DNA from: Frankiales bacterium
GTDB taxonomy: Bacteria > Actinomycetota > Actinomycetes > S36-B12 > CAIYMF01
Length of the DNA: 64,000 nucleotides
Assembly (NCBI GenBank): GCA_016125335.1
Contig: WGLY01000001.1
Coordinates: 62,001 to 126,000, forward strand
Reading direction: 5' to 3'
A program made the position numbers and the translations under genes. The notes beneath the pieces are model-generated. The model searched no databases. It was given only the letters and a program-made list of their open reading frames with translations, and was not told the origin of the DNA. How positions within the stretch are numbered: the first letter of the stretch is position 1; each line of letters starts with the position of its first letter. Positions 9,487 through 37,293 of the stretch are shown here, in pieces.

Positions 9487-9496
9487 GCCCGCAGCG

Positions 9497-10822: not shown

Positions 10823-10831
10823 GGTAACGAG

Positions 10832-12989: not shown

Positions 12990-13080
12990 AGTCGCGAGTC
13001 TAGGTCGGGGCGGGCGTTGATGAACGTCGGCTGAACATCCGATGGCGCCAGGGGATCGGGGCCGTCGCCGTGCCCTCGCG

Positions 13081-15473: not shown

Positions 15474-15779
15474 CGCTGCCGGCCCGGTGGGCCCGGGTGG
15501 CGCGACGGCTGCCCGGTCGCCATCGTCGGCACCCCCCTCGTGTGCGCTGCAAGCGCGGTCAGTGTGTCAGCACCGGTGGGCCGGTCGCGCGCGGAGCGGG
15601 CGGTCGGGCGGGTGGGTGGGTGGCACGGTCGTGCCGGGGACCGTACTGCCCGGTCGGACGGTGGCGCATCGTCACGTCGGACGACCCGTGCACGGGCGTC
15701 GCGGGCATACGCTGGCTGCGTACGGCGACGGGCGGGCATCCGACGTCGTACGAACGGGCAGGGGAACCGGGGTGTCAGC
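15474..15779. promoter_or_regulatory. Divergent intergenic region
   Basis: These 306 bases separate the divergent P-loop kinase and secreted repeat protein genes and must hold both promoters. CATACGCT around 15706-15713 could be an extended -10 for the plus-strand gene; the -35 side is not clear. No small gene with coding bias is seen. Confidence 0.35.
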
Positions 15780-17468: not shown

Positions 17469-17487
17469 TCCCGCGACGGTGCCGCGG

Positions 17488-18504: not shown

Positions 18505-18546
18505 TCGCGCACGGTACGTCGCCGATGCGGAGCGACGCGCCCCGGG

Positions 18547-18789
18547 TCAGGCCAGGGCGAGCAGGCGGGTCACCGTCGTGACCCCTGCGGCGATCACCAG
18601 GGCCGGCACGACGCCGTAGCGCATCACGCGGGCCACACGGCGGGTGAACCACGCGGGCTCGGCCTCCCAGGCCCATCCGACGAACAGCACGACGGCGAGC
18701 GCGAGCAGGACGAGGACGAGCCCGAACGGGCCGGACAGCAGGTCGGCCAGCGGCCCGCTGAGCTTCGGGACGGTGATGGCGAGAGTCAC
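18547..18789 (-). CDS. Small two-helix membrane protein
   Basis: An 80-residue protein with two hydrophobic spans (about 20-40 and 60-77) separated by a basic, Trp-containing loop. The GTG start at 18787-18789 overlaps the stop of the large membrane protein gene (GTGA), so it is translationally coupled to it and probably a partner subunit. I know no family for it. Confidence 0.65.
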   Translation of the reverse strand: MTLAITVPKLSGPLADLLSGPFGLVLVLLALAVVLFVGWAWEAEPAWFTRRVARVMRYGVVPALVIAAGVTTVTRLLALA

Positions 18790-20960: not shown

Positions 20961-21078
20961 TCCGCCTCCGTGGCCTCCGGGTCGTGCCCATACGGGCGGG
21001 GGCTCGTTCCCCCGTCCGACACGCCAGCCTAACCGGCCCGGTGAGGGCAACCGACCCACGACCGGGCACCATGGGCGC

Positions 21079-21897
21079 GTGGTGGTCACGAGGACTCGGG
21101 TCGTGGTGACGGTCCTCGCGGTCGCGGCGGCCGCACTGGTCGCCGTGTACCTCCTTCGCGGGTCCGGTCCGGGCACGCCGGCGCCCGTCTCCACGGCGGA
21201 CCTCACGCACCCGTCGGGCCTCGCCCCCACGGTCGACAAGGACCCGCGCTGGGGCGCGGCGTTCGTCGACGACTTCGACGGCAGCGCCCCCGACGGCTGG
21301 TACCTCTACGCCGGCGTGCCGGCGGGCGGCAACGGCGGCTTCTGGGCGCCGTCGCACGCGACGGTCGCCAGCGGCGTCCTGCGCCTGCGCACCACGCGGG
21401 ACGCGGGCCGCTGGGTCTCGGCCGGCGCGGCGCACAAGGCCGACGGCTCGATCACCTACGGCAAGGTCCAGGTGCGGTTCCGCATGGCGCCCGCGCACGG
21501 GGTGTCCTACGCCCTGCTGCTCTGGCCGGACAGCGAGAAGGCGCCGCCGTACGTCGAGTTCGGCGAGGACGGCGGCGGCGACCGCACGACGACGTCGGCC
21601 ACTCTGCACACGGCCACGGGCGGCACGGGTCCGCCGCACCTGCTCGGCGGCGACTTCTCCCAGTGGCACACGCTGGGCGTGGAGTGGACCCCCGGACGGC
21701 TCGACTACACCCTCGACGGGCAGGTCTGGGCGTCCGACATCGGCGCGGGCGTCCCCACCAAGCCGATGCACCTCGTGGTGCAGACCCAGACGTGGGACTG
21801 CGGCGTCCCCGACGTGCAGTGCCCCGACGCCACGACGCCCGCGACGACCGACCTCGAGGTCGACTGGGTGACGGTGCAGCCCTACCGCGGCGGCTGA
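21079..21897 (+). CDS. Secreted GH16-like protein lacking the catalytic nucleophile
   Basis: A 272-residue protein with an N-terminal membrane anchor or signal (about residues 8-26) and a concanavalin-like GH16 domain. It aligns without gaps over the active-site region with the next gene. At the catalytic signature ExDxxE it reads YVEFGE: residue 158 is Tyr instead of the nucleophile Glu, 160 is Glu instead of Asp, while the acid/base Glu163 remains. Hydrolysis by the normal retaining mechanism should therefore be impaired or lost, leaving a carbohydrate-binding role possible. The start may be either of the two adjacent GTG codons at 21079 and 21082. Confidence 0.82.
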   Translation: MVVTRTRVVVTVLAVAAAALVAVYLLRGSGPGTPAPVSTADLTHPSGLAPTVDKDPRWGAAFVDDFDGSAPDGWYLYAGVPAGGNGGFWAPSHATVASGVLRLRTTRDAGRWVSAGAAHKADGSITYGKVQVRFRMAPAHGVSYALLLWPDSEKAPPYVEFGEDGGGDRTTTSATLHTATGGTGPPHLLGGDFSQWHTLGVEWTPGRLDYTLDGQVWASDIGAGVPTKPMHLVVQTQTWDCGVPDVQCPDATTPATTDLEVDWVTVQPYRGG

Positions 21898-21974: not shown

Positions 21975-22793
21975 GTGCGCGTGAAGTCCCGGAGGGTTCG
22001 GCTGGCCGCCGTCGGCGGTGGGCTCACGGCGGCCGTGCTCGTCGGCGTGCTCGGCTTCCGCGAGCACGCGCTGGCCCGCTTCCCCGGCGTCGACGACCCG
22101 GCCCACCCCTCCGGCATGGCCCCCGCCCTCGACCCGGACCCGCGCTGGACCCCCGTGTACGTCGACGACTTCACCGGGACGTCGCCGGACGGCTGGTACC
22201 TCTACTCGGGGGCGCCCTCCAGCGGCCCCGGCGGCTTCTGGTCGCCCAGCCACGACATCGTGCAGGACGGCGTGCTGCACCTGCGCACGACGTACGAGAA
22301 CGGGCGCTGGGTGTCCGGCGGGCTCGCGCGCACGGCGCCCAAGCCCCTCGTGTACGGCAAGATCCAGGTGCGGTTCCGCATGGCCGAGGCGCGCGGGGTG
22401 TCCTACGCGCTGCTCATGTGGCCCGACGACGAGGTGTGGCCGCCCGAGATCGACTTCGGCGAGGACGGCGGCGGCGACCGCACGATGACGACGGCCACGC
22501 TGCACCACGGGCCGGAGAACAGCATCGAGCAGCACCAGCTGTCCGGGGACTTCAGCCAGTGGCACACCCTGGGCATCGAGTGGACGCCGGGCCGCATCGA
22601 CTACCTGGTCGACGGCCACGTGTGGGCGACCGACGAGGGCGCGGCCGTGCCGTCGGTGCCCATGCACCTGGCCCTGCAGACGCAGACATGGGACTGCGGC
22701 CTGGCCTACGCCCAGTGCCCCGACTCGACCACCCCGGCCCAGACCGACCTCGAGGTCGACTGGGTGACCGTGCAGGGCTACACCGGCGGCTGA
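21975..22793 (+). CDS. Secreted GH16-family glycoside hydrolase
   Basis: A 272-residue paralogue of the preceding gene, with an N-terminal hydrophobic anchor and a GH16 domain carrying an intact signature EIDFGE (Glu158, Asp160, Glu163). GH16 enzymes cleave or transglycosylate beta-1,3/1,4-glucans and galactans, and genes like this in polysaccharide loci often trim the exported polymer. GGGGAGG at 21962-21968 places the start at the GTG at 21975; the next in-frame GTG at 21981 is also possible. It follows its catalytically altered paralogue by 77 bases. Confidence 0.85.
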   Translation: MRVKSRRVRLAAVGGGLTAAVLVGVLGFREHALARFPGVDDPAHPSGMAPALDPDPRWTPVYVDDFTGTSPDGWYLYSGAPSSGPGGFWSPSHDIVQDGVLHLRTTYENGRWVSGGLARTAPKPLVYGKIQVRFRMAEARGVSYALLMWPDDEVWPPEIDFGEDGGGDRTMTTATLHHGPENSIEQHQLSGDFSQWHTLGIEWTPGRIDYLVDGHVWATDEGAAVPSVPMHLALQTQTWDCGLAYAQCPDSTTPAQTDLEVDWVTVQGYTGG

Positions 22794-22820: not shown

Positions 22821-24281
22821 TCAGGGCGTGTAGCTGTACGCCGTCACCCAGTCCACGCGCACGTGACCGCTCGCGCTGTTCGACGGCGCGCCGCCGCTGA
22901 GCCGGGTCTCGGTCTGCAGCACCCAGTGCATCGGCTTGGACGGGACCAGCTTCGTCGAGGTACCGATCACCTTGCCGTCGAGGTAGAAGACGACCTTGCC
23001 GGGCTTCCACTCGACGGTGCTCGTGTGCCAGCCGGAGAACGTCGTCGACAGCTCGAACGCGTCCTGGCCGCCGCTCGAGGAGGCGTAGTGCGCGTAGGCG
23101 GAGATGGTCGAGCTCAGGTCGCCCTCGGGGAAGTCGATCTCGCCGTCGGCCGGCCAGGAGTCCGAGTCCGGCCACAGCAGCCACGCGACCTTGTACCCCG
23201 GGGTCGAGTCGGCCTGGAACCGCACCGAGTAGCGCCCGTAGGTCATCTTCGGCAGCTTCGGCATCGGCGCCGACACGTAGTGCACGCCGTTGACCGTGTG
23301 AACCCAGATGTCCATGAGGCCGTTGGACGCCGACAGCGTCCGCGCAGGGTCGTAGGTCCCGTTGCCGCTGGTGTCCTTCCACGGCGACGGGTAGGCCGTC
23401 CAGCGCGTGCCGTAGGCGGACAGGAACGAGCCGAGCGCCGCGTCCTTGCTGAAGTCGTCGGCGAAGATCTGGGTCCAGCCCGGCAGGTCGCCCTTCGGCA
23501 TCGCGCTCGGGTCCGGCGCCGGAGCCGACGGCGCCGAGGTCGTCGGGGCGGCCGTGGTCGGCGCGGCGGTCGTGGGCGCGGCGGTGGTGGGGGTCGCGCT
23601 CGTCGGCTCGGGGGCCGGCGTCGGCGACGTCGTGTCCGTGGGCGTGGGCGACGCGCTCGTGGGCGTCGGCGTCGGGGAGGGCACGTTGGAGCGGTGCGAG
23701 CGGTAGGACCGGTTGGCCGCGTCCACCGCGGCGGCCGTGGCCGAGGCCACCGCCGCGGAGTCGGCGGAGGGACGGGCGGCGGCCAGCGACTGGCGGCGGG
23801 CGCCCCGCAGCGCCGCGGTGAGCGTCGTCGTGACCATGACGCTGCGCGCCGCGGTGCGGCTCGCGAACGCCGAGCGCGACCCGGTGGTGCTGATCACGCC
23901 GTCGCTCACGGTCGCGGTGGCCGAGGCGCTGCTCGAGGCGGCGACGCGCACCGTGACGTAGCGGTGCAGCCGGCCGCTGCTGCTGCGGGCCCAGCGGCCG
24001 CTGACCGAGACGATGCGGGCCCCGCGCGCGACGACGCGCGCCGAGACGTCGGGAGCCACGGTGGTGGTGTCGGTGCGGACCCCGGGTGCGGGCAGGTCCG
24101 GCCCGGACGCGCTCGCCTGGCTGTTGCCGGCCACCAGCAGCCCGAGCAGCACCGTGACGACGGCCAGCATCGCGGGGAATCGCCAGGGGCGCGACACGCT
24201 GGGTGACCACCGCGCGGGGCGGCCAGGGCGCTCGTCGGGCAGGACGTGCGCGGGGCGCCGGGAGTGGGTGCCGACCGTCAT
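22821..24281 (-). CDS. Secreted GH16-family hydrolase with long N-terminal region and Thr/Pro linker
   Basis: A 486-residue protein. A signal segment (about 38-58, AMLAVVTVLLGLLVAGNSQ) is followed by a ~110-residue Ser/Ala/Arg-rich domain, then a Pro/Thr/Ala linker (TAAPT-type repeats, about 195-245), then a GH16 catalytic domain with intact EIDFPE (Glu381, Asp383, Glu386). It is more distant from the two neighbouring GH16 genes than they are from each other. It converges on them and is divergent from the carrier-protein operon at 24636, with which it shares a 354-base upstream region. Confidence 0.85.
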   Translation of the reverse strand: MTVGTHSRRPAHVLPDERPGRPARWSPSVSRPWRFPAMLAVVTVLLGLLVAGNSQASASGPDLPAPGVRTDTTTVAPDVSARVVARGARIVSVSGRWARSSSGRLHRYVTVRVAASSSASATATVSDGVISTTGSRSAFASRTAARSVMVTTTLTAALRGARRQSLAAARPSADSAAVASATAAAVDAANRSYRSHRSNVPSPTPTPTSASPTPTDTTSPTPAPEPTSATPTTAAPTTAAPTTAAPTTSAPSAPAPDPSAMPKGDLPGWTQIFADDFSKDAALGSFLSAYGTRWTAYPSPWKDTSGNGTYDPARTLSASNGLMDIWVHTVNGVHYVSAPMPKLPKMTYGRYSVRFQADSTPGYKVAWLLWPDSDSWPADGEIDFPEGDLSSTISAYAHYASSSGGQDAFELSTTFSGWHTSTVEWKPGKVVFYLDGKVIGTSTKLVPSKPMHWVLQTETRLSGGAPSNSASGHVRVDWVTAYSYTP

Positions 24282-24635: not shown

Positions 24636-25049
24636 ATGGGCAGCACGCGCGTCGGTGTCGACCTCGCCCGGGCGTCCGACGTCCGCGAGAGCATCGCCGC
24701 CTTCGGGGATCGCTACCTGCGCCGGGTGTACACCGAGCACGAGCTGGCGGCGTGCACCGGTGCGGGGCAGGTCGCCGAGCGGGGGCTCGCGGCGCGCTTC
24801 GCGGCCAAGGAGGCCCTGCTCAAGGCCCTGCACGTGGCCGACGCCGCGATCGACTGGCGCGACGTCGAGGTGCGACGGACCGCCGGCGGGTGGCCCGAGC
24901 TCGCGCTGCACGGCGGGGCCCGGCGCCTCGCCGAGGACGTGGGTCTGCTCGACGCCTCGGTGTCGATGACCCACGACGACGACGTCGCCATGGCGGTCGT
25001 GGTCGCGGTGTGCGACCCCGGCGTCCGGCGGCCGGACGAGCCGCGCTGA
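24636..25049 (+). CDS. AcpS-type 4'-phosphopantetheinyl transferase
   Basis: A 137-residue enzyme that transfers phosphopantetheine from CoA to a carrier-protein serine. The N-terminal GVDLARASDV supplies Asp9, and RFAAKEALLKAL supplies Glu59, the two magnesium ligands of the AcpS family. It lies 45 bases upstream of the carrier protein gene, so it is probably dedicated to that carrier; the housekeeping AcpS would be elsewhere. The ATG at 24636 follows a GACGGAGG ribosome site. It starts the seven-gene operon that ends at 32770. Confidence 0.85.
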   Translation: MGSTRVGVDLARASDVRESIAAFGDRYLRRVYTEHELAACTGAGQVAERGLAARFAAKEALLKALHVADAAIDWRDVEVRRTAGGWPELALHGGARRLAEDVGLLDASVSMTHDDDVAMAVVVAVCDPGVRRPDEPR

Positions 25050-25094
25050 GCCTGCCCACCGGCGGGCGCGGAGCACGAGGACGGGGGCAAGGAC

Positions 25095-25388
25095 ATGAGC
25101 GCGACCAGGACCCAGGACGACCAGGAACGAGGGATCTCTCCCGTGGACGACACGATTCGGAAGGTGCTGGCCGATCACGGCCGCCTCGCCGTCGACGCCG
25201 CAGGGCTCGACCGGCACGCGGACCTCTACGAGGCCGGTCTCACCTCCCACGCCAGCGTCAACATCATGCTGGCGCTCGAGGACGCCTTCGACCTCGAGTT
25301 CCCCGACAGGCTGCTGAAGAAGTCGACCTTCTCCAGCATCGCGTCCATCGAGGACGCCATCACCGAGCTCAGCGAGGGAGGGTCCTGA
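25095..25388 (+). CDS. Acyl-carrier-like protein (aminoacyl carrier)
   Basis: A 97-residue carrier protein with a ~18-residue leader and a four-helix ACP fold. DLYEAGLTSHASV carries the likely phosphopantetheine attachment site Ser51, where fatty-acid ACPs have DSL. ALEDAFDLEFPD continues helix II and its loop. This variant agrees with my memory of the carrier proteins loaded by aminoacyl-tRNA-synthetase-like ligases described from Bradyrhizobium and Agrobacterium. The stop overlaps the start of the next gene (TGATG), so the flavoprotein is coupled to it. Confidence 0.88.
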   Translation: MSATRTQDDQERGISPVDDTIRKVLADHGRLAVDAAGLDRHADLYEAGLTSHASVNIMLALEDAFDLEFPDRLLKKSTFSSIASIEDAITELSEGGS

Positions 25389-26554
25389 TGACCCTGGACC
25401 TGGACGCGCCCGCCGCCGTCGACTACCGCGCGCTCGCCCGGCGCATCGCCACCGAGGTGGCCGCCCCGGCCGCCGCCGAGGTGGACCGCGACGCCCGGTT
25501 CCCGCACGAGTCGTTCGCCGCCCTGCGGGCCGAGGGCCTGCTCTCGGCGATGATCCCGGTCGAGCTGGGCGGGGCCGGCGCCACCGTGTCCGACATGGCG
25601 GCGGTCACGGAGGAGCTCGGCATGGCCTGCGCCTCCACGGGCATGGTGTTCGCCATGCACCAGATCCAGATCAACTCCCTGATCCGGCACGGCCGCAGCG
25701 CCGCGCTCGACGAGCTCAAGCGCGAGATCTGCCGCGACCAGCTCCTCGTCGCGTCGGCGACGACGGAGGTCGGCATCGGCGGCGACGTGCGCTCCTCGAG
25801 CTGCCACGTGCAGCTGGAGGGGGACACCTTCCGGGTCACCAAGCAGGCCCCGGTGATCTCGTACGGCGAGCAGGCCGACCTCCTCTTCCTCACCGCCCGG
25901 CGCAACGCGGACTCCCCGCCGAACGACCAGGTCCTGACGGTGATGCGGATCAAGGACATCGAGCTCGAGCGCGTGGGGGAGTGGAACACTCTCGGCTTCC
26001 GGGGCACGTGCAGCCCGGGGTTCGTGGTGCGCGGGCACGGCCCGGCCGACCTCATCCTCGACGACCCCTACGGCGACATCTCGGCGCGGTCGATGCTGCC
26101 GAGCGCGCACATCCTGTGGGGGCACCTCTGGTTCGGCATGGCCACGCAGGCCGTCAACCAGGCCCGCGCCTTCGTCCGGGCCGCGGCGAGGTCCAAGCCG
26201 GGGACGGTCCCGCCGGGGGCGCAGCGCCTCGCCGAGCTCATGGTCGTGCACCAGCAGATGGCCGAGCTCGTCCGCGGCGCCGCCGCCCGCTACGAGGCCA
26301 CCTACGACGACGTCGACGCGCAGAGCTCTATCTCCTTCGCCGTGGCGATGAACTCCCTCAAGGTGTCGGCGTCCTCGCTGCTCATCGACATCGTCGGCAA
26401 GGCGCTGGTCATCGTCGGGATCATGGGCTACCGCGAGGACTCGGCGTACTCCCTGGGCCGCGTCCTGCGCGACGCGTGGGGCGCCCCGCTGATGGTCAAC
26501 AACGACCGGATCCTCGGCAACAACGCCCAGCTCCTGCTCGTGAGCAAGGACTGA
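25388..26554 (+). CDS. Acyl-CoA-dehydrogenase-like flavoprotein
   Basis: A 388-residue protein with the three-domain acyl-CoA dehydrogenase fold. FAALRAEGLLSAMIPVELGG is the usual N-terminal helical region, ASATTEVGIGGD matches the FAD/substrate loop, and the C-terminal helical domain ends with NNDRILGNNAQ. Because it sits between the carrier protein and the amino acid:carrier ligase, the expected substrate is an aminoacyl or acyl group on the carrier phosphopantetheine, not CoA. This matches carrier-bound dehydrogenases such as those making pyrrolyl-S-carrier from prolyl-S-carrier. The reaction is inferred; the active-site base is not identified here. Confidence 0.82.
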   Translation: MTLDLDAPAAVDYRALARRIATEVAAPAAAEVDRDARFPHESFAALRAEGLLSAMIPVELGGAGATVSDMAAVTEELGMACASTGMVFAMHQIQINSLIRHGRSAALDELKREICRDQLLVASATTEVGIGGDVRSSSCHVQLEGDTFRVTKQAPVISYGEQADLLFLTARRNADSPPNDQVLTVMRIKDIELERVGEWNTLGFRGTCSPGFVVRGHGPADLILDDPYGDISARSMLPSAHILWGHLWFGMATQAVNQARAFVRAAARSKPGTVPPGAQRLAELMVVHQQMAELVRGAAARYEATYDDVDAQSSISFAVAMNSLKVSASSLLIDIVGKALVIVGIMGYREDSAYSLGRVLRDAWGAPLMVNNDRILGNNAQLLLVSKD

Positions 26555-26557
26555 CCG

Positions 26558-27472
26558 ATGGTCGACGTCACGGACCACGTCGCCTTCCGGGACCGGCTCG
26601 TCGAGACGGGGTGGCTGCGCCGCACCGCCGTCGACGGCGTCATCGCCCGCACCCAGCCGTTCGTGCGGGTCGAGCGCGGCATCGACGCGCTCGTCACCCG
26701 TACCGGCGCCGACCAGGACGCGCTCGTGCTGCGGTTCCCGCCCGTGTTCCCGCGGGAGTCCTACCTCAAGACCGACTACCTGGCCTCGTTCCCCAACCTC
26801 ACCGGCTCGGTGCACACGTTCGAGGGCACCGAGCGCGAGGCTGCGGCGCTGCTGGCCCAGCAGGAGGCGGGTGAGGACTGGGGGCTGTCGCTGGTCACCA
26901 CGGACCTCATGCTCGTGTCGGCCTCCTGCCACCCGTCCTACGAGCTGTTCGCGGGCGAGCTCGGCACGGACTCGGTGCTGCTCGACATCGAGGGGTGGTG
27001 CTTCCGCCGCGAGCCCTCGCCGGACCCGGCCCGCGCGCAGTCCTTCCGGCAGCGCGAGTTCGTCTACATCGGCACGCCGGACGGCGCTCTCGCGCATCGC
27101 GACGAGTGGGTGAAGCGCGGTCTGTCGGTGCTCGAGCAGCTCGAGCTGCCCGCCACCGCCGACATCGCCAACGACCCGTTCTTCGGCCGGGCCGGGCGCA
27201 TGCTCGCGGCCAACCAGCGCGAGGAGGCGCTCAAGATCGAGCTGCTCGTGCCGCTGTACGGGCCGGACGAGCCGGGCACCGCGCTGGTGTCCAGCAACTG
27301 CCACCGCGACCACTTCGGGGTCAACTTCGGCATCACCACGCCCGACGGCGAGGTGGCGCACTCGTCGTGCGTCGGCTTCGGGATCGAGCGCATGGTGGTG
27401 GGACTGGTCCGCCACCACGGGCCGGACCTCGACTCGTGGCCCTCGGGCGTGCGGGAGGTGCTGGGGCTGTGA
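26558..27472 (+). CDS. Amino acid:[carrier protein] ligase (class II seryl-tRNA-synthetase-like)
   Basis: A 304-residue homologue of the atypical SerRS catalytic core without a tRNA-binding arm; true SerRS is over 400 residues. Motif 2 is FRRE (149-152) with FRQRE following, motif 3 is GFGIER (273-278). The zinc ligands expected from this family are Cys124, Glu167 and Cys271. Known relatives activate glycine or alanine with ATP and load the phosphopantetheine of a carrier protein instead of tRNA (Mocibob and co-workers). It follows the dehydrogenase by 3 bases and overlaps the DUF1839 gene (GTGA). The amino acid used here is not determined. Confidence 0.9.
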   Translation: MVDVTDHVAFRDRLVETGWLRRTAVDGVIARTQPFVRVERGIDALVTRTGADQDALVLRFPPVFPRESYLKTDYLASFPNLTGSVHTFEGTEREAAALLAQQEAGEDWGLSLVTTDLMLVSASCHPSYELFAGELGTDSVLLDIEGWCFRREPSPDPARAQSFRQREFVYIGTPDGALAHRDEWVKRGLSVLEQLELPATADIANDPFFGRAGRMLAANQREEALKIELLVPLYGPDEPGTALVSSNCHRDHFGVNFGITTPDGEVAHSSCVGFGIERMVVGLVRHHGPDLDSWPSGVREVLGL

Positions 27473-28443
27473 CCGCGCAGGATCAGGCCGAGCTGGTCGG
27501 CCACCCGATGCACTCGGGCACCCGCACGTGGACCGAGACGAACTGCTACGCCGACGTCTGGATCGAGCTGCTGCACGACCTGGGGCTCGACCCGGTCCCC
27601 GCGTTCGTCTCCGCGCTCTCGGCCGACTTCCAGGGCGACCAGTGGGTCTTCCTCAAGGTGGAGACCGAGGACCTGCGCGACCTCTACGGCATCACCGTCG
27701 GCGAGATGAACGTGTGGCGTCCCGTGCGCGACCACGTCGTGGAGCAGCTCGCGATGGGCCGGCGCACGACAGTCGAGGTCGACTCGTGGTGGCTGCCCGA
27801 CACCGCCGGCGTCTCCTACCGGCTCGAGCACGTGAAGACGACGATCGTGCCCACGACGGTCGACGTCGAGGGCCGCCGGATGCGCTACCTGCACAGCGCC
27901 GGCCACCATGTGCTCGAGGGCGAGGACTTCGACCACGTCTTCGACCTGCGCGCCGGTGCGGGCGGCCCGGGCCTGCCGCCCTACATGGAGGTCGTGCGCC
28001 TCGACCGGCTCGCCGATCCCGACGACCTGCCCGAGCGCACCGCGGCCCTGGCCCGTCGCCACGTGGCCCGGCGTCCGGACGACAACCCGGTGGAGCGGCT
28101 CGCCGCGCGGCTCGTCGCGGACCTCCCGTGGCTGCGCGAGCAGGGCCTGGAGACCTTCCACCAGTACGCGTTCGGCATGATCCGCCAGTGCGGGGTCACC
28201 GCCGAGCTGGCCGCCGACGTCGTCGACTGGCTGACCGAGCACGGCCAGGGCGACCTCGGCCGGGCCGCGTCGCTGTTCCGCGAGGCCTCCTCGAGCGCCA
28301 AGACCCTCCAGTTCCGCGTCGCCCGGGCGGTGTCCGGACGCGACATGGACGTGCCCGCCCTGGTCCGTCCGGTCGCCGAGGCCTGGGGCGCGGCCATGGC
28401 CGACGTCGTGGCGTGGGCGGAGCCCGCGCGCGGATCGGCGTGA
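27469..28443 (+). CDS. DUF1839 family protein
   Basis: A 324-residue protein of the DUF1839 type, which in my knowledge is commonly found next to amino acid:[carrier protein] ligases but has no assigned reaction. HPMHSGTRTWTETNCYADVW opens it and contains a conserved-looking Cys (NCYAD); DSWWLPDTAG and HQYAFGMIRQCG are other striking blocks. There is no signal peptide or membrane span. It overlaps both neighbours by 4 bases (GTGA), so it belongs to the same translational unit. A role in handling the carrier-bound aminoacyl group is a reasonable inference. Confidence 0.85.
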   Translation: MTAQDQAELVGHPMHSGTRTWTETNCYADVWIELLHDLGLDPVPAFVSALSADFQGDQWVFLKVETEDLRDLYGITVGEMNVWRPVRDHVVEQLAMGRRTTVEVDSWWLPDTAGVSYRLEHVKTTIVPTTVDVEGRRMRYLHSAGHHVLEGEDFDHVFDLRAGAGGPGLPPYMEVVRLDRLADPDDLPERTAALARRHVARRPDDNPVERLAARLVADLPWLREQGLETFHQYAFGMIRQCGVTAELAADVVDWLTEHGQGDLGRAASLFREASSSAKTLQFRVARAVSGRDMDVPALVRPVAEAWGAAMADVVAWAEPARGSA

Positions 28444-30842
28444 CCGGCACGGATCTCCTCGCCCCCGCCGCGTGGCGCCTCGCGCGCTGCGAGCCGGGGG
28501 CCCCCGCGCCGACTCCGGACGACGCCGGCTGGATCCCGGCCGCGGTGCCCGGCACGGCGGCGCTCGCGTGGGCCGCGGCGTACGGCGACGCGGCCGCGCG
28601 CGAGCTCGACGTGGACGCGTGGGACTGGTGGTTCGCCACCTCCGTCGAGGTCGGCGCGCCGGGGCCGCACACGCTGCGCCTCGACGGCGTCGCCACGCAG
28701 TGGTCGGTGTCCGTCGACGGCGATGCCGTGGCCGAGGGCACGAGCATGTGGCAGCCGGTCGAGGCGGTGCTCGACCTCGGCGCCGGCGCCCACGACGTGG
28801 TGCTGCGCTGCGCGGCGCTGCGCCCGGTTCTCGAGGGGCGCCGGCCGCGCCCGCGCTGGCGCTCCCGGCTCGTGGCGGAGTCCGGCCTGCGCTGGGTGCG
28901 CACGTCCCTCCTGGGCCGGATGCCGGCGCTCGCGCCCACCTGGGCCCCGGCCGGCCCCTGGCGTCCGATGCACCTGTGGGCCTCGCGCGAGCTGCCGCCG
29001 AGGCTGCTCGACCTGACCGCGCGCCTCGAGGACGGCGACGGCGTGGTGGACGTGGTCGCGCGCGTCGGCGACGTCGCGGAGGCGACCGTCCACGCGGGCG
29101 CCGTCTCCGTGACGGTGCCGGTCGTGGACGGCGAGGTGCGCGCCACGCTGCGGCTGCCCGCGGCGCCGCTGTGGTGGCCCCGCGGCTACGGCGGGCAGCC
29201 CCTGGTCGACGTCGCGGTGGAGACCGTGCCCGGGCGCCGGCATCTGCTGCGCCGGATCGGTTTCCGCACCGTGTCCGCGGACCGGTCCGACGGCGGGTTC
29301 ACCCTGCTCGTCAACGACGTCCCGGTGTTCGCCCGCGGCGCGACCTGGTCGCCGGTCGACCCGGTGGGCCTCGCCGACGACGAGGAGCTGCTGCGGCGCG
29401 ACCTCGACCGCGCGGCCGCGCTCGGCGTCACGATGCTGCGGGTCGTCGGCACCCACGCGTACGAGTCGGCCGCCTTCTTCGACCTGTGCGACGAGCGCGG
29501 CATCCTCGTGTGGCAGGACGCGATGCTCGCCACGCTCGATCCGCCGGACGACCCTGAGTGGCTCGCCGTGGTGGCCGACGAGGTGGGCACCGTGCTGCAC
29601 GGCCTTCAGGGGCGGCCGTCGCTGGCGGTCGTCTGCGGCGGCACCGAGACCCTCCAGCAGCCCACGATGATGGGCCTCGAGCGCGACCGTCGGGCCGTGC
29701 CGGTGATCGAGGCCACGCTGCCCACCGTCGTCGAGGCCGTCGTCCCGGGCACGCCGTACGTGGAGTCCTCACCGTCCGGCGGCGACCTGCCCACGCACAA
29801 CGGCCAGGGGGTCGCGCACTGGTTCGGGGTGGGTGGCTACCGTCGCCCGCTCGAGGACGTGCGGCGCGCGGACGTGCGCTTCGCATCCGAGTGCCTCGCC
29901 CTCGCCACCCCGCCCGAGCGGGCGTCGCTCGCCCGGCTGCTGCCCGACGGCGCAGGCGGCGAGGCGTGGCTGGCCGGCGTCCCGCGCGACCGAGGGGCCG
30001 ACTGGGACTTCCTCGACGTCACCGACCACTACGTGCGCGAGGTGCTCGGGGAGGACCCGGCCTCCGCCGGCGACGAGCGCGGGCTCGACCTGCGTCGGGC
30101 GGCCGCGGCCCACGTGATGTCGGAGGTGTTCTCCGAATGGCGCCGGGACGGCTCGCGCTGCGCGGGCGGCCTGGTGCTCGAGTGGCGCGACCGCGTGCCC
30201 GGGCCCGGGTGGGGGCTGCTCGACAGCGCCGGCCGCCCGAAGGCCACGTGGTACGCGCTGCGCCGGGTGCTCGCCCCCACCGCGGTGCTGCTCACCGACG
30301 AGGGCCTCGACGGCGTGCGCGCGCACGTGCGCCACGACGGCCCCGGCCCCCTGCAGGGTGTGCTGCGCGTCTCGGCGCTCGGGCGGCACGGCGCGCTCGA
30401 GGTGGCCGAGGGCGAGATCGCGGTGCCCGGCCACGGCGCGGCGTCGCGCACCGTCGACGGCGTCCTCGGCGTCTTCCGCGACCTCACGCACGCCTACCGC
30501 TTCGGGGAGCCGCAGTACTCCGCCCTCCGCGTGTCCCTGCACGACGTCGGCGGCCACGAGGTGGCCTCGGCCGTGCGGCTGCTGCCGGACCAGCGGGTGC
30601 GCGACCTCCCGGACCCGGGGCTCGTCGTCGAGCCGGCCGGCGAGGGGCGCGTGCGCGTGCGCGCCGAGCGGCTGGCCGCCTGGGTCGTCGTGGAGGCCGA
30701 GGGCCACGTGCCCGACGACGCCTGGTTCCACCTGCTGCCGGGGGAGTCGCGCACGGTCGCGCTCGCGCCGGTCGACGCGTCGGCCGGCCCGATGAGCGTC
30801 GACGCCGTCACGGTCCGCTGCCTCAACGGGGGCGGGCAGTGA
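28440..30842 (+). CDS. Glycoside hydrolase family 2 / beta-mannosidase-like protein
   Basis: An 800-residue protein with the GH2 plan: jelly-roll N-terminal domain (WDWWFATSVEV), immunoglobulin-like domain, then a TIM-barrel opening near LLVNDVPVFARGATWSPVD. The position of the acid/base Glu is VCGGTET (Glu403), compared with the usual GNNE, and the candidate nucleophile is FASECLAL (Glu484), compared with SEFG. Both Glu remain but their surroundings are unusual. No signal peptide is seen, so it should be cytoplasmic, where it may act as a transferase or on a precursor. It overlaps both neighbouring genes (GTGA). Confidence 0.75.
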   Translation: MTGTDLLAPAAWRLARCEPGAPAPTPDDAGWIPAAVPGTAALAWAAAYGDAAARELDVDAWDWWFATSVEVGAPGPHTLRLDGVATQWSVSVDGDAVAEGTSMWQPVEAVLDLGAGAHDVVLRCAALRPVLEGRRPRPRWRSRLVAESGLRWVRTSLLGRMPALAPTWAPAGPWRPMHLWASRELPPRLLDLTARLEDGDGVVDVVARVGDVAEATVHAGAVSVTVPVVDGEVRATLRLPAAPLWWPRGYGGQPLVDVAVETVPGRRHLLRRIGFRTVSADRSDGGFTLLVNDVPVFARGATWSPVDPVGLADDEELLRRDLDRAAALGVTMLRVVGTHAYESAAFFDLCDERGILVWQDAMLATLDPPDDPEWLAVVADEVGTVLHGLQGRPSLAVVCGGTETLQQPTMMGLERDRRAVPVIEATLPTVVEAVVPGTPYVESSPSGGDLPTHNGQGVAHWFGVGGYRRPLEDVRRADVRFASECLALATPPERASLARLLPDGAGGEAWLAGVPRDRGADWDFLDVTDHYVREVLGEDPASAGDERGLDLRRAAAAHVMSEVFSEWRRDGSRCAGGLVLEWRDRVPGPGWGLLDSAGRPKATWYALRRVLAPTAVLLTDEGLDGVRAHVRHDGPGPLQGVLRVSALGRHGALEVAEGEIAVPGHGAASRTVDGVLGVFRDLTHAYRFGEPQYSALRVSLHDVGGHEVASAVRLLPDQRVRDLPDPGLVVEPAGEGRVRVRAERLAAWVVVEAEGHVPDDAWFHLLPGESRTVALAPVDASAGPMSVDAVTVRCLNGGGQ

Positions 30843-32770
30843 CCGTGGCCGGCGAGGAGCGCACACCCGCCACGCCGCGCACCGGCCGTCCGGATGATCC
30901 GGACGGGGGTCGCGCGGACTACGGTCGACCCGTGGCGTCGCACTCCGTGTCCGTGCCGGGTGCGCGCGCCACCGAGGGCGGCACCGCGGCCCCGGGGGCC
31001 GCCGTCCCGCGGCCGCGCACCGAGCCGGTGCTCGCCGCCACCTCGGTGCCCGGAGTGACCATGCGGGCCGGCTGGTTCGGCTCGCCGCGGCGGCCGCTCT
31101 ACGGCGTCTGGCACCTTCCCGCCGACGGCACGGCCCGCGGCGCGGTGGTGCTCGCGCCCGGCATCGGCCTCGAGCTCGACCTCGGCCACCGGGCCCTGCG
31201 CGTGCTCGCGGACCGGCTGGCGCAGTCCGGCGCCGCGGTGCTGCGGTTCGACTACGACGGCACCGGCGACTCGGCCGGCGACGACCGCGACCCCGATCGC
31301 GTCCCGGCGTGGCTGGGCAGCGTGCGCGACGCCGTCGACGCGGCGCGGGCGGCGGGGGCTCCGCACGTCACGCTCGTGGGGCTGCGCATCGGCGCGACGC
31401 TCGCGGCGTCGGCCCGGGCCGGGGCGGACGCCCTCGTGCTGTGGGACCCCTGCGCCACGGGCAAGGCCTACCTGCGCCAGGAGAGCGTGATGTTCGCGCT
31501 CAACGTCTCGACCAGCCGGCCCGAGCCGCGCACCGACGGCTCGGTGGACGGGCCCGGCTCCGTCTACACGGCCGAGACCGTCGCGGCGCTCGGCGAGCTC
31601 GCGCTGCGCGGCGACGACGTCGAGGACTGCGCGTCCTGCCTCGTGCTGCTGCGCGACGACAAGCCCGACAACCGCACGACGAAGGCCGTCTCGGGCCGCC
31701 GCGGCGTGCAGGTCGAGGAGGTCTCCGGGCAGGCGGCGATGCTCGAGGTGTCCGGCTTCCTGTCGAAGGTCCCGCTCGGCACGGTCGAGCGGATCGTCGA
31801 CTGGGTGGCCGAGCGGCTGCCCGACGAACCGGTGCCGATCGCGCCGTCGATCGAGCCCGAGGCCGTCGTGGCGACGCTGCCGGACGGCACGCAGGTGGTC
31901 GAGTCCGTGCAGTCGCTCGGCCCGCACCGGCTCTTCGGGATCCTCACCGAGCCGCGCCCGGCACCCGCTGCCCCGCTCACGGTCGTGTTCTCGAACAGCG
32001 CGACGACGTACCACGTGGGCTCCGCCCGGTCGTGGGTGGAGCTCTCCCGGCGCATCGCGGCGCACGGCGTGCGCGGCCTGCGGATCGACCAGCGCGACCT
32101 CGGCGACGGGCCCGACGTCGCCGAGCCGCCGGGGCCGGTGTACTACAACGAGGAGTCGCTCGAGGACCTGCGCGTGGCGGCCGAGTCCGCGCGGTCGGCG
32201 TCGTCCGGCGACGTCGCCCTGGTGGGGCTGTGCTCGGGCTCGTGGTCGTCGGCGGTGGTGGCCGAGCAGGTCAAGCCGGCCGGCCTGCTGCTGCTCAACC
32301 CGTGGGTGTGGGACCGCGAGGTCTCCCCGATGGGACCCGTCGCGTACCCGGCACGCGAGATGTTCACCGCCCGGGTGTCGCGCGCGCTGTCCGACCGCGC
32401 CCGGCTGCGCGCCTTCGGGGCGCGCGTGCTGTCGTGGCTGTGGGCGCTGCGCCCGGACTTCCTGTGGCGGGCGGCCGCGAGCCTGCACCTCGGCGACACC
32501 ACGGGCGCCACTGTGGGCCGCATCGTCGACGGCGGCACCGACGTGCTCGTCGTGATGGGACCGCGCGAGGCGCAGATCTTCCGTCGCGGCCTCGGCTACG
32601 GCATGGCCCGCCGCCTCGAGCGCAGCGGCCGGCTCGCGCTGCTCGACCGCCCCGCGCTCGACCACGGGATGCTGCACTCGCGCGAGCGCGACGTGGTCCT
32701 CGACCGCGTCGTCGCCGACGTCGCCGCCCTGGCCCAGCGCGTCCGCGACACGGCCGGCCGCCCCACCTGA
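30839..32770 (+). CDS. Double-domain alpha/beta-hydrolase
   Basis: A 643-residue protein with two alpha/beta-hydrolase domains after a ~65-residue flexible leader. The first (about 75-330) has a nucleophile elbow GLRIG, with Arg183 where a Ser is expected, so it is probably not catalytic. The second (about 340-640) has GLCSG, placing Cys465 as nucleophile, as in dienelactone hydrolases, and DHGM near the end as candidate catalytic His. As last gene of the carrier-protein operon, it could transfer or release the acyl group from the carrier. The GTG start at 30839 overlaps the preceding stop; an in-frame GTG near 30932 is an alternative. Confidence 0.75.
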   Translation: MTVAGEERTPATPRTGRPDDPDGGRADYGRPVASHSVSVPGARATEGGTAAPGAAVPRPRTEPVLAATSVPGVTMRAGWFGSPRRPLYGVWHLPADGTARGAVVLAPGIGLELDLGHRALRVLADRLAQSGAAVLRFDYDGTGDSAGDDRDPDRVPAWLGSVRDAVDAARAAGAPHVTLVGLRIGATLAASARAGADALVLWDPCATGKAYLRQESVMFALNVSTSRPEPRTDGSVDGPGSVYTAETVAALGELALRGDDVEDCASCLVLLRDDKPDNRTTKAVSGRRGVQVEEVSGQAAMLEVSGFLSKVPLGTVERIVDWVAERLPDEPVPIAPSIEPEAVVATLPDGTQVVESVQSLGPHRLFGILTEPRPAPAAPLTVVFSNSATTYHVGSARSWVELSRRIAAHGVRGLRIDQRDLGDGPDVAEPPGPVYYNEESLEDLRVAAESARSASSGDVALVGLCSGSWSSAVVAEQVKPAGLLLLNPWVWDREVSPMGPVAYPAREMFTARVSRALSDRARLRAFGARVLSWLWALRPDFLWRAAASLHLGDTTGATVGRIVDGGTDVLVVMGPREAQIFRRGLGYGMARRLERSGRLALLDRPALDHGMLHSRERDVVLDRVVADVAALAQRVRDTAGRPT

Positions 32771-32776
32771 TCCGAC

Positions 32777-32831
32777 GTCACTGGTGAACCGGTCGCTTCC
32801 CGGCCCGGGAGACGACCGTTTCACCAGTGAC
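32777..32831. terminator. Strong inverted repeat after the carrier-protein operon
   Basis: Two 19-base arms (32777-32795 and 32813-32831) match as inverted repeats at 18 of 19 positions. The 17-base loop itself contains the palindrome TCCCGGCCCGGGA. It begins 6 bases after the operon's last stop, so it is most likely its terminator. There is no T tract. A regulator site for the following secreted-protein gene is an alternative. Confidence 0.7.
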
Positions 32832-33009
32832 ATCGCGGGGCTCGGGGTGCGCGCCTGACCCTGCGTCACCGGGCCGGCACGGGGTGCGATCCCGTTGCTC
32901 CGCACGGGTCTGCGGCGTCCGGCGGCTGCGCGGTCGCGTGCTTCACTCGACCGGGCAGACGCGGCGTCCGAGGGGGTCTCCGCGACGGCACGACGGAGGT
33001 CGCGGAACG

Positions 33010-36000
33010 GTGGGCCCACGGGGTGCACGCACGGCGCTCGCGGTCACCGCGGCGCTCGTCGTCGCGCTGCTGCCGTTGGCCGGGCCGGTCGCGCCGGCCT
33101 CGGCCGTGCAGAGCACGGCGTCGGTGGACACGCTGCGGACCTCGTGGGACAGCGCCGAGCCGGGATTGCGTCCGGCCGCGGTCGCGAGCTCGGACTTCGG
33201 CGGCCTGTTCGACGCGACGGTCGACGGCCAGGTGTACGCCCAGCCCCTCGTGCAGGACTCCTCGGTGCTCGTCACCACGGAGCGGGCCCGCGCCTACGCG
33301 CTCGACCGCCTCACCGGCGCGGTGGCGTGGAGCCGATCGTTCGGCGCCCCCTTCCAGGCGACCACCATCGGGTGCGGCGACCTCGTGCCGGACCTCGGCT
33401 CGACGTCGACGGGAGTCGTCGATCCCGCCACGCGGACTTGGTACTTCACCACCAAGCTCGCCGTCGGCAACTCCGACGCCGCGTGGTGGCTGCAGGGCGT
33501 CTCGGTCGACACCGGTGCGGACCGTCCCGGGTTCCCGGTGCGCATCGCCGGCTCGCCGGACAACGACCCGGCGACGACGTTCTCCGCGGTGACGCAGATG
33601 CAGCGGCCGGGGCTGCTGCTGCTCGACGGTGTCGTCTACGCCGCGTTCGGCGCCCACTGCGACGTGCTGCCGTTCAAGGGCTACGTCGTCGGCGTCAGCA
33701 CCACGACGCACGCGGTCACGTCGATGTGGACCACCGCGGTGGGCGCGTCGCTGTCCGGCGGCGGCATCTGGCAGGGCGGCGGCGCGCTGGTGTCCGACGG
33801 GCCGGGACGCATCCTGCTCTCTACCGGCAACGGGTTCTTCGGCGGCAGCCGGTCCGGCACCCCGGGCCTGCTCGCCGAGTCGGTGGTGCGGCTGCGCGTC
33901 ACGGGCACCGGGCAGCTGGTGACCGACGACTGGTTCACGCCGGCGGACGCGCGCACGCTCGACGCCAACGACACCGACCTCGGGTCCGGCGCGCCCACCG
34001 CCCTGCCCGACGCCTTCGGCACCGCGGCGCACCCGCACCTGATGCTGGTCGAGGGCAAGGACGGGCGGATGTTCGTCCTCGACCGCGACGACCTCGGCGG
34101 CTACGGCACCGGGCCGGGTGGCACGGACCGCATCGTGTCCACGACGTCGGACGTCGGGCCGCTCTGGGGGCATCCGGCGTTCTTCGGCGGCGGTGGCGGG
34201 TACGCGTACGTCGCGCCGAGCGGGCAGCCGCTGCGGGCGCTGGCCTACGGCGTCGAGAGCGGCACCGGCGTCCCGCGGATGACCGTGGTGGCGAGCAGCA
34301 CCGGGTCCTTCGGGTACACGTCCGGCTCGCCCGTGGTGACCTCCGACGGCACCGACCCGTCGAGCGCGCTCGTCTGGATCGTGTACTCCGGCGGGGCCAA
34401 CGGGGCCGACGCGGAGCTGCGCGCGTACGACGCGGTCCCGAGCGCCGGCGTGCTCACGCTGCGCTGGCACGCCGCGATCGGCACCGCCTCGAAGTTCTCC
34501 CAGCCCGCGACGGACCGCGGCGTGGTCTACGTCGGGACCCGCGACGGCCACGTGCTCGCGTTCGGCCGGCCGCAGACGACGGCGCTCGCGTCGTCGCCGG
34601 TGGAGCTCGGCGCGACGCCGGTGGGCGTGCGCGTGTCCGGCACCGCGACCCTCACGGCGACGACAGCGGTGCACGTCCTCGACGTGAGCGCCACCGCGCC
34701 CTTCACCGTCACCCGTCCGGCGACGCTGCCGGCCATGTCGTCGGGCGACGTCCTCGCCCTCGGCGTCGCGTTCCAGCCGGGCGCCGCGGGCGACGCGGTC
34801 GGCCAGCTCGTCGTCACGACGGACGTCGGCACCTTCCGGACCGGGCTGCACGGCCGCGGCACCCAGGACGGGCTCGCGTCGGCACCGGGCGCGGTCGCCT
34901 TCGCCGACCAGCCCACCGGGCTGCCGCGCATGCGCTCGGTCGTCCTGACGAACACCGGCGCCACGGCCACCACCGTCTCCGGGGTGTCCGGGCCCGGCGG
35001 GGCCTTCTCGCTGTCCGGGCCGCCGGCGGTCGGCACCGTGGTCGCGGCCGGCGCCTCGATCACCGTGGGGGTCACGTTCGACCCCGGCACGGTGGGCCCG
35101 GCGTCGTCGTCGTTCACCGTGACGTCCACGACGGGAGCCGTCACGGTGCCGGTGTCCGGCACCGCCGTCGCCGGCGCGAGCCAGCTCTCGCTCTCGCCGC
35201 CCACGCTGGACTTCGGCGTCGTGCCCGTGGGGCAGTCGGTGTCGATGGGCTTCGACGTCGCCGACACCGGCAACCTGCCGCTCACCGTCACCAAGGCCAA
35301 GGCGCCCACCGCGCCGTTCACGGCCGACAGCCCGCTCGGCGAGGGGACCGTCGTCGGCGTCGACCTGTCCTACCGGCAGGACGTCCGCTTCACGCCCACG
35401 CAGGCCGGGTTCTTCACCGCCTACTACGAGGTGACCGGCGACGACGGGACCGGTCAGCACTACGTGCTGCTGCGCGGCCGGGCCACGACGCCGGCCGCGG
35501 CGACGGCGCCCTCGCCGGTGACCGGGCCGGGGTGGCGGCTCAACGGGGCCTCGGCGGTGGTCGGGCCGTCCCTCGTCCTGACCCCCGCTGCGCCGGACGC
35601 GGTCGGCAACGCGGTGCTCGGCACGGAGGTGGCCAGCGCGGGGCTCTCCGTGCGCTTCCGCACGACCGTGCCGGCCGGCAGCGCCGGTGCGGAGGGCGTC
35701 GCCCTCGGCCTGCTCGACCCGGCGGCGGAGAGCCCGGCGTCCCTCGGCCAGGGCGGGGGCGGGCTGGGCGTGGGCGGGCTGCACGGTGCGGCGGTGACGC
35801 TCGACGTGCACGACGACGGCCCGCTCGAGCCCGCGCGGCCGTTCGTCGGGATCGTCGACGACACCAGCCTGACGCCGGGCACGCCCCACTACGTGCGCAC
35901 CTCCGCCGTCCCCGGCGCCGTCTCGCACCTGGTCACGGTCACCTACGTCCGCGGGGTCCTGCACGTCGACGTCGACGGGACGCCGTCGGCGTCGGCCGTC

Positions 36001-37293
36001 GTGGCGCTCCCGCGCACCGTGCTGCTGTCCTTCTCCGCAGCCACCGGACCGGCGGGGGCGGCGCAGTCGGTGCGCGACGTCGTCGTGGGCCGGGTGCCCG
36101 TCACGGACACCGTGCACGGCACGCGCGGCTGGCGGTTCAACCACGGCGCCTTCGCGTCCGGGTCGTGGACCACGCTCAACCGCGCGGTGCGCGGCGTCGC
36201 GGGATCTGTGGTGCTCCCGTCCGCGCGCAGCACGTCGGAGCTGACGGCGTCGTTCACGCTGGGCATCGGCGGCGGCACCGGGGGAGAGGGCATGACGTTC
36301 GCCCTGCTCGACCCCGCGTCGTCGACGCCGGCCTCCGTGGGCCGGGCGGGTGCGCAGCTGGGGGCCGGTGGGCTCGCGGGCACGTTCGTCACCTTCGACA
36401 CGCGGCGCGAGCGGGGCGAGCCGTCGTCGAACTTCGTCAGCGTCTCCACCGGCGTGCGCGGCGGCAGCCTGCACCGGCTCGCCGCGACGACCCATGTGCC
36501 CGGCCTGCGGGCGGGGAGCCACGCGGTCGTGGTCCGGACGTTCGACGGGCGGCTGTCCGTACGCGTCGACGGCCGGGTCGTGCTCGACGTGGTCGCGCCG
36601 CTGCCGCCGCGGGCGTACGTCGCGTTCACCGGCTCGACCGGCACGGCCACCGACGCCCACCGCGTGGCGCGGGTGGTCGTCAGCGCCGTGCGCTCGGTGG
36701 CGGCGCCGGCGGTCGCGAGCAGCGGCTGGCGCCGCAACGGCGACGCCGTGGTGTCGCGCGGCGCCGTGCGGCTCACCTCCGCGCGCGTCGGCCGTCGTGG
36801 CACGACCTTCACCCGGGCCGTGTTCCCGGCCGCCGGGCTGCGGCTGCGCTACGTCGCGACCATCGTCGACGGGCGCGGCGCCGACGGCATGGCGCTCGCT
36901 CTCGTGCCCGCGACCGTGGCGGACACGGCGCAGGGCTCCCCGGGCGGCGGCGTCGGCTGGTCGGGCCTCGGCGGCGTCGCCGTGGTGAGCGACACGTTCG
37001 CGAACTCCGGCGACCCCGGCCGCGACTTCGTCGGCGTGGCCACCGGCACGCGCGGCGTCGCCGACCGGCTGCGCTACGTCGCGCACTCGCCGCCGGGGCA
37101 CCACCTCACGTACGGCACTCACGTCGTCGACGTCGCCTATGTGGGCGGCCGGCTGTACGTGTGGGTGGACGGCTGCCTGCGGATGGCCCCCGCGGTGGTG
37201 CTGCCCCCGCTCCTGCGCGTCGGGTTCACGGCGTCCACCGGCGGCCTCGCGGACAGCCACACGGTGTCCTCGGTGGCGCTGACGTCCTGGTAG
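33010..37293 (+). CDS. Giant secreted beta-propeller / lectin-repeat protein
   Basis: A 1427-residue exported protein. The signal region (LAVTAALVVALLPLAGPVAPASA) leads into a PQQ-like beta-propeller domain (to about residue 530). About 300 residues of repeated beta-sandwich modules follow (FGVVPVGQSVSMGFDV, typical of HYDIN/choice-of-anchor-D repeats). Three ~199-residue lectin-like (ConA-type) repeats start at GWRLNG (~841), GWRFNH (~1040) and GWRRNG (~1239). No LPxTG motif or C-terminal anchor is seen. The GTG at 33010 is chosen because the signal peptide starts there and GGAGG lies upstream. It probably binds glycans at the cell surface or in the matrix. Confidence 0.8.
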   Translation: MGPRGARTALAVTAALVVALLPLAGPVAPASAVQSTASVDTLRTSWDSAEPGLRPAAVASSDFGGLFDATVDGQVYAQPLVQDSSVLVTTERARAYALDRLTGAVAWSRSFGAPFQATTIGCGDLVPDLGSTSTGVVDPATRTWYFTTKLAVGNSDAAWWLQGVSVDTGADRPGFPVRIAGSPDNDPATTFSAVTQMQRPGLLLLDGVVYAAFGAHCDVLPFKGYVVGVSTTTHAVTSMWTTAVGASLSGGGIWQGGGALVSDGPGRILLSTGNGFFGGSRSGTPGLLAESVVRLRVTGTGQLVTDDWFTPADARTLDANDTDLGSGAPTALPDAFGTAAHPHLMLVEGKDGRMFVLDRDDLGGYGTGPGGTDRIVSTTSDVGPLWGHPAFFGGGGGYAYVAPSGQPLRALAYGVESGTGVPRMTVVASSTGSFGYTSGSPVVTSDGTDPSSALVWIVYSGGANGADAELRAYDAVPSAGVLTLRWHAAIGTASKFSQPATDRGVVYVGTRDGHVLAFGRPQTTALASSPVELGATPVGVRVSGTATLTATTAVHVLDVSATAPFTVTRPATLPAMSSGDVLALGVAFQPGAAGDAVGQLVVTTDVGTFRTGLHGRGTQDGLASAPGAVAFADQPTGLPRMRSVVLTNTGATATTVSGVSGPGGAFSLSGPPAVGTVVAAGASITVGVTFDPGTVGPASSSFTVTSTTGAVTVPVSGTAVAGASQLSLSPPTLDFGVVPVGQSVSMGFDVADTGNLPLTVTKAKAPTAPFTADSPLGEGTVVGVDLSYRQDVRFTPTQAGFFTAYYEVTGDDGTGQHYVLLRGRATTPAAATAPSPVTGPGWRLNGASAVVGPSLVLTPAAPDAVGNAVLGTEVASAGLSVRFRTTVPAGSAGAEGVALGLLDPAAESPASLGQGGGGLGVGGLHGAAVTLDVHDDGPLEPARPFVGIVDDTSLTPGTPHYVRTSAVPGAVSHLVTVTYVRGVLHVDVDGTPSASAVVALPRTVLLSFSAATGPAGAAQSVRDVVVGRVPVTDTVHGTRGWRFNHGAFASGSWTTLNRAVRGVAGSVVLPSARSTSELTASFTLGIGGGTGGEGMTFALLDPASSTPASVGRAGAQLGAGGLAGTFVTFDTRRERGEPSSNFVSVSTGVRGGSLHRLAATTHVPGLRAGSHAVVVRTFDGRLSVRVDGRVVLDVVAPLPPRAYVAFTGSTGTATDAHRVARVVVSAVRSVAAPAVASSGWRRNGDAVVSRGAVRLTSARVGRRGTTFTRAVFPAAGLRLRYVATIVDGRGADGMALALVPATVADTAQGSPGGGVGWSGLGGVAVVSDTFANSGDPGRDFVGVATGTRGVADRLRYVAHSPPGHHLTYGTHVVDVAYVGGRLYVWVDGCLRMAPAVVLPPLLRVGFTASTGGLADSHTVSSVALTSW

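Follow-up and report, generated by a model that had tools for sequence, protein, structure and literature searches.

The gene neighborhood closest to the locus described here was reported by Iyer et al. in 2010 and combines a SerRS-like ligase with an acyl carrier protein (ACP), a redox enzyme, the conserved open reading frame Atu2574 (Agrobacterium), a glycosidase and liposaccharide genes (PMC2922099). The parts of that paper concerned with this neighborhood predict that an amino acid becomes amide-linked to an amino sugar at the surface, a reaction assigned to the tightly linked Atu2574 from gene context alone; they name neither a phosphopantetheinyl transferase nor a double hydrolase, and treat the conserved open reading frame without a structural test. 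Bll0957-type ligases (PDB 3mey and 4h2w) represent the same ligase family as that of our locus, with the same zinc set and an adjacent carrier and acyl-CoA-dehydrogenase-like (ACAD-like) gene. In lincosamide biosynthesis, the catalytic cysteine of CcbD takes carrier-bound proline and hands it on to a sugar amino group (PMC12945683). The exosortase-A system (TIGR03101, TIGR03100 and TIGR03098), finally, brings together two alpha/beta hydrolases, a ligase and a carrier within a polysaccharide locus, as is also seen in our locus.

Seven co-directional, tightly packed open reading frames (ORFs) occupy positions 24636–32770 on the + strand of the window, the 64,000-nucleotide stretch of DNA that was analyzed. 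The initial annotation had described a mostly overlapping seven-gene operon, and the ORF list and library searches recovered all seven reading frames and their families. Overlaps of 4 bases join neighboring ORFs at 27469, 28440 and 30839, the carrier and flavoprotein genes overlap in a TGATG at 25388, and the ligase gene follows after a gap of 3 bases; hydropathy reveals no evident signal peptide or membrane segment in any of the seven proteins. As in the neighborhood of Iyer et al., a ligase, a carrier, a redox enzyme, a conserved ORF and a glycosidase are found with liposaccharide genes, and from gene order we infer that Atu2574 is DUF1839, the product of the fifth gene. The core pathway idea is prior art from 2010, and the GH2 protein is not, as had been supposed, an undescribed member of it, the glycosidase link and transfer to a surface sugar both being found in the relevant parts of PMC2922099. 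The description of the operon as lying inside a polysaccharide region is fair, with two GT2 genes, a Wzx-type flippase and GH16 genes identified upstream by library searches.

Some further genes around the operon deserve mention. Three GH16-like genes of the beta-glucanase type stand together just upstream (approximately 20848–21897, +; 22018–22793, +; and 22821–24281, −), the first two being alike by eye, which suggests tandem duplication. An 817-aa protein (18786–21239, −), hydrophobic on reading and with no Pfam match, could serve the polysaccharide region as polymerase or glycosyltransferase. Directly downstream, 32827–37293 encodes a 1488-aa protein with a beta-propeller, a choice-of-anchor D and three L-type lectin domains, which looks secreted and carbohydrate-binding, and next to the cluster 37364–38227 resembles, by eye, a polyphosphate kinase 2 family protein.

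The operon opens with an AcpS-type 4′-phosphopantetheinyl transferase (PPTase; 24636–25049, +; PF01648, 57 bits), in which D9, E59 and K63 are conserved (40 sequences), followed by a stand-alone carrier protein (25095–25388, +; PF00550; NF005480, 103 bits) whose predicted phosphopantetheine attachment site, Ser51, as proposed initially, is invariant in 95 of 95 relatives. The ligase (26558–27472, +), encoded two genes downstream of the carrier, is a 304-aa protein with a class II core and the zinc set and without the tRNA-binding arm of SerRS. It scores 400 bits against NF005479, above the curated cut-off of 357, and finds Bll0957 in the PDB at E 6e-72. The Cys-Glu-Cys zinc set that had been noted in the truncated SerRS-like ligase is kept in at least 100 of 103 relatives (Cys124, 103/103; Glu167, 100/103; Cys271, 103/103), and the motif residues Arg150/Glu152 and Arg278 are conserved as well. 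By sequence, the window ligase is a member of the amino acid:[carrier protein] ligase family.

Family membership, which the initial annotation had recognized, is thus borne out; the closest characterized ligase, Bll0957, belongs to a separate clade. In a maximum-likelihood ligase tree the Bll0957 type forms one long-stemmed clade with 100/100 support, and the window ligase falls with other Actinomycetota ligases of the DUF1839 type (the truncated loci L022, L045 and L136 carry label A in this tree but belong to the DUF1839 type). Bll0957 orthologs (62–96% identity) sit with a flavoprotein and mostly a carrier only, and in seven 20-kb Bll0957-type loci (140 kb in total) we found no DUF1839, GH2 or hydrolase gene. 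With both tree and gene content setting the two types apart, the amino acid preference of Bll0957 is not simply transferable to the window. In the Bll0957-branch loci L125–L131, genes for AMP-binding proteins and short-chain dehydrogenases abound, a content that hints that this branch makes another product, possibly a small molecule.

The third gene (25388–26554, +; PF02771 and PF00441; residue numbering from a start at 25385) encodes an ACAD-like flavoprotein that has neither of the glutamates by which an ordinary acyl-CoA dehydrogenase is recognized. In an alignment to solved ACADs, the position of MCAD Glu376 is V/I in 100 of 103 relatives and what we take, from this alignment and general knowledge of the family, to be the position of IVD Glu254 is S/A in 98 of 103; the neighboring His242 is present in 102 of 103. 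Homology at the level of the fold family holds, and with both canonical catalytic positions lost the sequence points to an ACAD homologue for which ordinary dehydrogenase or desaturase chemistry is doubtful. The proposal that the amino acid is oxidized on the carrier keeps its plausibility, its ordinary desaturation version being doubtful. Among PDB entries ordinary ACADs are closest, with nitrososynthases among the weaker matches, and nitrososynthase-like N-oxidation is a possibility.

The fifth gene (27469–28443, +; PF08893, 369 bits) encodes DUF1839. When its profile was run against PDB sequences nothing relevant came up, and it was the fold search alone, with an AlphaFold model of pLDDT 92, that related it to CcbD (Z 20.8 over 287 of 324 residues), AziU3 (18.6) and CtaG (17.7), after which the next, unrelated entries drop to Z 8.0. 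DUF1839 is hereby predicted to be an aminoacyl-carrier:amine condensing enzyme of CcbD-like papain fold. A C(T/S)H triad has been proposed for DUF1839 (PMC10318531), to which Cys26, His142 and Thr/Ser125, each invariant in 98 of 98 relatives, provide a fit; His121 is also near-invariant. DUF1839 shares with CcbD/LmbD the predicted fold and a putative catalytic cysteine, and the reaction predicted for it is theirs, that is, the joining of a carrier-bound amino acid to an amino sugar. The two differ in that sequence identity is 11% and the CcbD triad is Cys-His-Glu, and the lincosamide system differs from the window in that the amino acid is activated by an NRPS adenylation domain and the product is a soluble antibiotic. 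The initial annotation had given the passing of the amino acid to the double hydrolase and no role to DUF1839; since the predicted fold is that of CcbD, AziU3 and CtaG, we regard DUF1839 instead as the best-supported candidate transferase. A fold match alone is no proof of the reaction. Our search, which covered the open-access literature and subscription papers only to a small extent, found no paper connecting DUF1839 and CcbD.

The sixth gene (28440–30842, +) encodes a GH2 beta-mannosidase-like protein (Ig_mannosidase; the best PDB match being a beta-mannosidase at E 4e-35) that, aligned to beta-mannosidase, keeps both catalytic glutamates, Glu403 in 85 and Glu484 in 88 of 89 relatives. The seventh (30839–32770, +) encodes a double alpha/beta hydrolase, the N-terminal half of which matches TIGR03101 on residues 83–214 (E 2e-25) and the C-terminal half TIGR03100 from residue 364 (E 1e-21), with scores below the curated cut-offs in both cases (89.8 versus 202.75 and 77.2 versus 168.45 bits), so that as judged from these profiles it is a relative, not a member, of the exosortase-A hydrolase 2 and 1 families. 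Its first nucleophile site is occupied by Arg183 (GLRIG; 51/59) and its second by Cys465 (GLCSG; 59/59), with His609 present in all 49 relatives that reach this position. In the AlphaFold model (pLDDT 88), Arg183 and Cys465 lie between strand and helix, as in nucleophile elbows. The same Arg (GLRAG) and Cys (GLCDG) are found in exosortase-A hydrolases 2 and 1 of loci L149 and L150, and in sequence the double hydrolase resembles a fusion of the two. At a further exosortase-A locus (L153), hydrolases 2 and 1 lie close to an AMP-forming ligase (TIGR03098, 761 bits), a carrier and a flippase; unlike in the window, the hydrolases are separate genes, the ligase is AMP-forming instead of SerRS-like, and no DUF1839 or GH2 was seen at the locus examined. 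Foldseek returned ordinary esterases and lipases for one domain of the double hydrolase and no functional hint. In Rhizobium sp. NLR16a (L030, 16829–20140) a Wzx-type flippase is fused to the N terminus of the double hydrolase; no second such fusion was found among the other plasmids of the collection, and the join could be one of annotation or sequencing.

Conservation of the gene set was assessed in a scan of bacterial genomes, with many metagenome-assembled genomes among the hosts, in which 80 DUF1839 loci were kept of 541 relatives and annotated with profiles built from the window and three annotated operons. GH2 directly follows DUF1839 in 76 of the 78 readable loci. In the 55 loci with nearly 10 kb on each side, GH2 was found in all 55, the flavoprotein in 46, the carrier in 45, the ligase in 44, the double hydrolase in 36 (being absent within 10 kb in the other 19) and the PPTase in 24; over all 80 loci, the PPTase is present in 37. 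Genes missing near DUF1839 may lie further off, as in Rhodococcoides fascians A44A, where they are found from about 14 kb away. The last six genes, with their order kept, occur in Alpha- and Betaproteobacteria, Planctomycetota, Verrucomicrobiota and Chloroflexota, and the Azospirillum and Mycetohabitans annotations read carrier, flavoprotein, ligase, DUF1839, GH2, hydrolase. Rhizobium NLR16a keeps the six-gene order with a glycosyltransferase inserted between, R. rhizoryzae keeps it but with the hydrolase inverted, and Shinella has the first five of these genes, carrier to GH2, without the hydrolase. DUF1839 loci are hosted by Actinomycetota, Alpha-, Beta- and Gammaproteobacteria, Planctomycetota, Verrucomicrobiota, Chloroflexota, Gemmatimonadota and Myxococcota; they are rare in the phylum of the window (3 of 396 sampled Actinomycetota genomes, 3 of 17 in the window's family), and the scan found no DUF1839 relatives in viral contigs. 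Co-occurrence of the operon's gene families is far beyond chance. The seven families initially grouped together do travel together across phyla, and the GH2 protein (55/55) and the double hydrolase (36/55) are conserved members of the set. Two loci stand out by their setting: a plasmid of Rhizobium gallicum (pRGM101a, 7616–13476) carries carrier, flavoprotein, ligase, DUF1839 and GH2 genes adjoining nifDKNX and an annotated exopolysaccharide production repressor (L156), and one genome (G139, L020) has two systems some 8 kb apart (6146–7735 and 14931–19998), one of the full type and the other a second ligase, carrier and PPTase set.

The glycosyltransferase and flippase neighborhood anticipated for the operon is seen more widely. 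Of 126 genes flanking full loci in diverse phyla, 11 are GT4-type, accompanied by Wzx-type flippases, Wzy_C and Bac_transf, whereas among the 25 families listed for 73 genes flanking Bll0957-type loci there is no glycosyltransferase family; AMP-binding proteins and short-chain dehydrogenases dominate there, with two Polysacc_synt matches. Reduced loci, composed of ligase, carrier, PPTase and double hydrolase without flavoprotein, DUF1839 and GH2, are found inside polysaccharide clusters, for instance on a Tsukamurella plasmid, where a lipopolysaccharide-type gene, glycosyltransferases and a polyprenyl glycosylphosphotransferase are nearby, and in genome G392, with Bac_transf, three GT4 and Wzy_C nearby. 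A set of carrier, flavoprotein, ligase and hydrolase is present in another genome (G292). Some full loci, such as those of Shinella (L033, downstream) and Mycetohabitans (L031), have few recognizable polysaccharide genes nearby or none, which makes a small secreted glycoside possible.

On balance we lean toward a reading in which the operon attaches an (oxidized) aminoacyl group, in amide linkage, to an amino sugar that belongs to a cell-envelope glycan or to a lipid- or nucleotide-linked precursor of it, the amino acid and the acceptor being guessed from context. Judging from its family, the PPTase would convert the carrier into its holo form, after which the SerRS-like ligase, by an activity shown elsewhere for the family, would adenylate a small amino acid and transfer it as a thioester to the carrier. 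The ACAD-like flavoprotein may then oxidize the carrier-bound amino acid, and with both usual Glu bases missing, oxygenation or N-oxidation appears at least as likely as desaturation. The acyl group would next pass to Cys26 of DUF1839 and from there to an amine on the sugar, as in CcbD, a step supported by the fold match. In the weakest step, the cytoplasmic GH2 protein might process the sugar, and the double hydrolase might, via Cys465, either move the group onto a growing lipid-linked glycan or clear the carrier. The gene order conserved in many phyla, the CcbD fold with Cys26, His142 and Thr/Ser125, and the glycosyltransferase and flippase flanks argue for this envelope-glycan reading, as do the reduced loci in polysaccharide clusters, the NLR16a flippase fusion and the exosortase-A locus L153. 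The amide-forming role of DUF1839, taken by itself and as predicted from the model, appears somewhat better founded than the pathway as a whole. A bolder version, which we advance tentatively as a possibility, would have bacteria of at least seven phyla N-acylate envelope-glycan amino sugars with a carrier-oxidized amino acid, DUF1839 acting as a CcbD-type cysteine condensing enzyme and the Cys-nucleophile double hydrolase as a general carrier-to-glycan acyltransferase, making for a surface modification new to glycan chemistry.

The same fold match that points to amide formation also gives some weight to a rather unlikely competitor, namely that the product is an aminoacyl-glycoside that is small and diffusible, in the manner of an antibiotic, a signal or a thiol (lincosamides and mycothiol being examples), with the nearby glycosyltransferases coincidental or serving it. 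CcbD, AziU3 and CtaG, the nearest solved relatives of DUF1839, all serve small natural products, and the patchy spread (3/396 Actinomycetota), the plasmid sites and the nif neighbors in Rhizobium gallicum would suit an accessory product; some loci lack polysaccharide genes. Such a product is harder to reconcile with reduced loci sitting in Wzy-type polysaccharide clusters, with the hydrolase–flippase fusion, and with a hydrolase pair common to exosortase-A polysaccharide loci. That the charged carrier feeds nonribosomal peptide synthesis, as proposed by Mocibob et al. in 2010 in the first ligase paper (as reported in the relevant part of PMC2922099), we consider very improbable. Carrier-bound amino acids are indeed peptide building blocks, but no peptide-synthetase families occur among the 25 listed for the genes flanking full loci, GH2 constantly adjoins DUF1839 (76/78), and the corresponding part of Iyer et al. 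argues likewise against peptide synthesis (PMC2922099). We also considered a catabolic glycan-utilization operon and rejected it by reasoning: a degradative pathway would have little use for a carrier, PPTase and ligase of its own.

A separate question is which protein performs the transfer. The double hydrolase could be the acyltransferase, with DUF1839 an accessory, e.g., a thioesterase or proofreading enzyme. A cysteine in the nucleophile elbow favors thioester exchange, and Cys465 (59/59) and His609 (in all 49 relatives reaching it) are strictly kept, which counts for this assignment, as do loci with ligase, carrier and hydrolase but without DUF1839. We nevertheless think it improbable: the CcbD match gives the transfer reaction directly to DUF1839, and the tightest pair is GH2 and DUF1839 (76/78), the hydrolase being missing within 10 kb in 19 of the 55 loci. 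The double hydrolase may still be a transferase in its own right, an option that fits the reduced loci; where DUF1839 is absent it is the sole candidate, which fits its relatives in exosortase-A loci.

To the 2010 proposal our analysis adds several elements that we have not found described: DUF1839 is identified from its predicted structure, the double hydrolase is akin to the exosortase-A hydrolases and has an Arg/Cys signature, the flavoprotein lacks the usual catalytic Glu residues, the ligase is split from the characterized branch, and reduced versions occur in polysaccharide clusters. With these, most genes of the operon are now given a testable step, the likely joining enzyme is named by structure, the system is linked to the exosortase-A hydrolases, so far unexplained, and the characterized Bll0957 branch is set apart from the DUF1839 branch. 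If the reading we favor is true, the operon would represent a widespread bacterial surface modification and a source of small stand-alone enzymes that attach amino acids to sugars.
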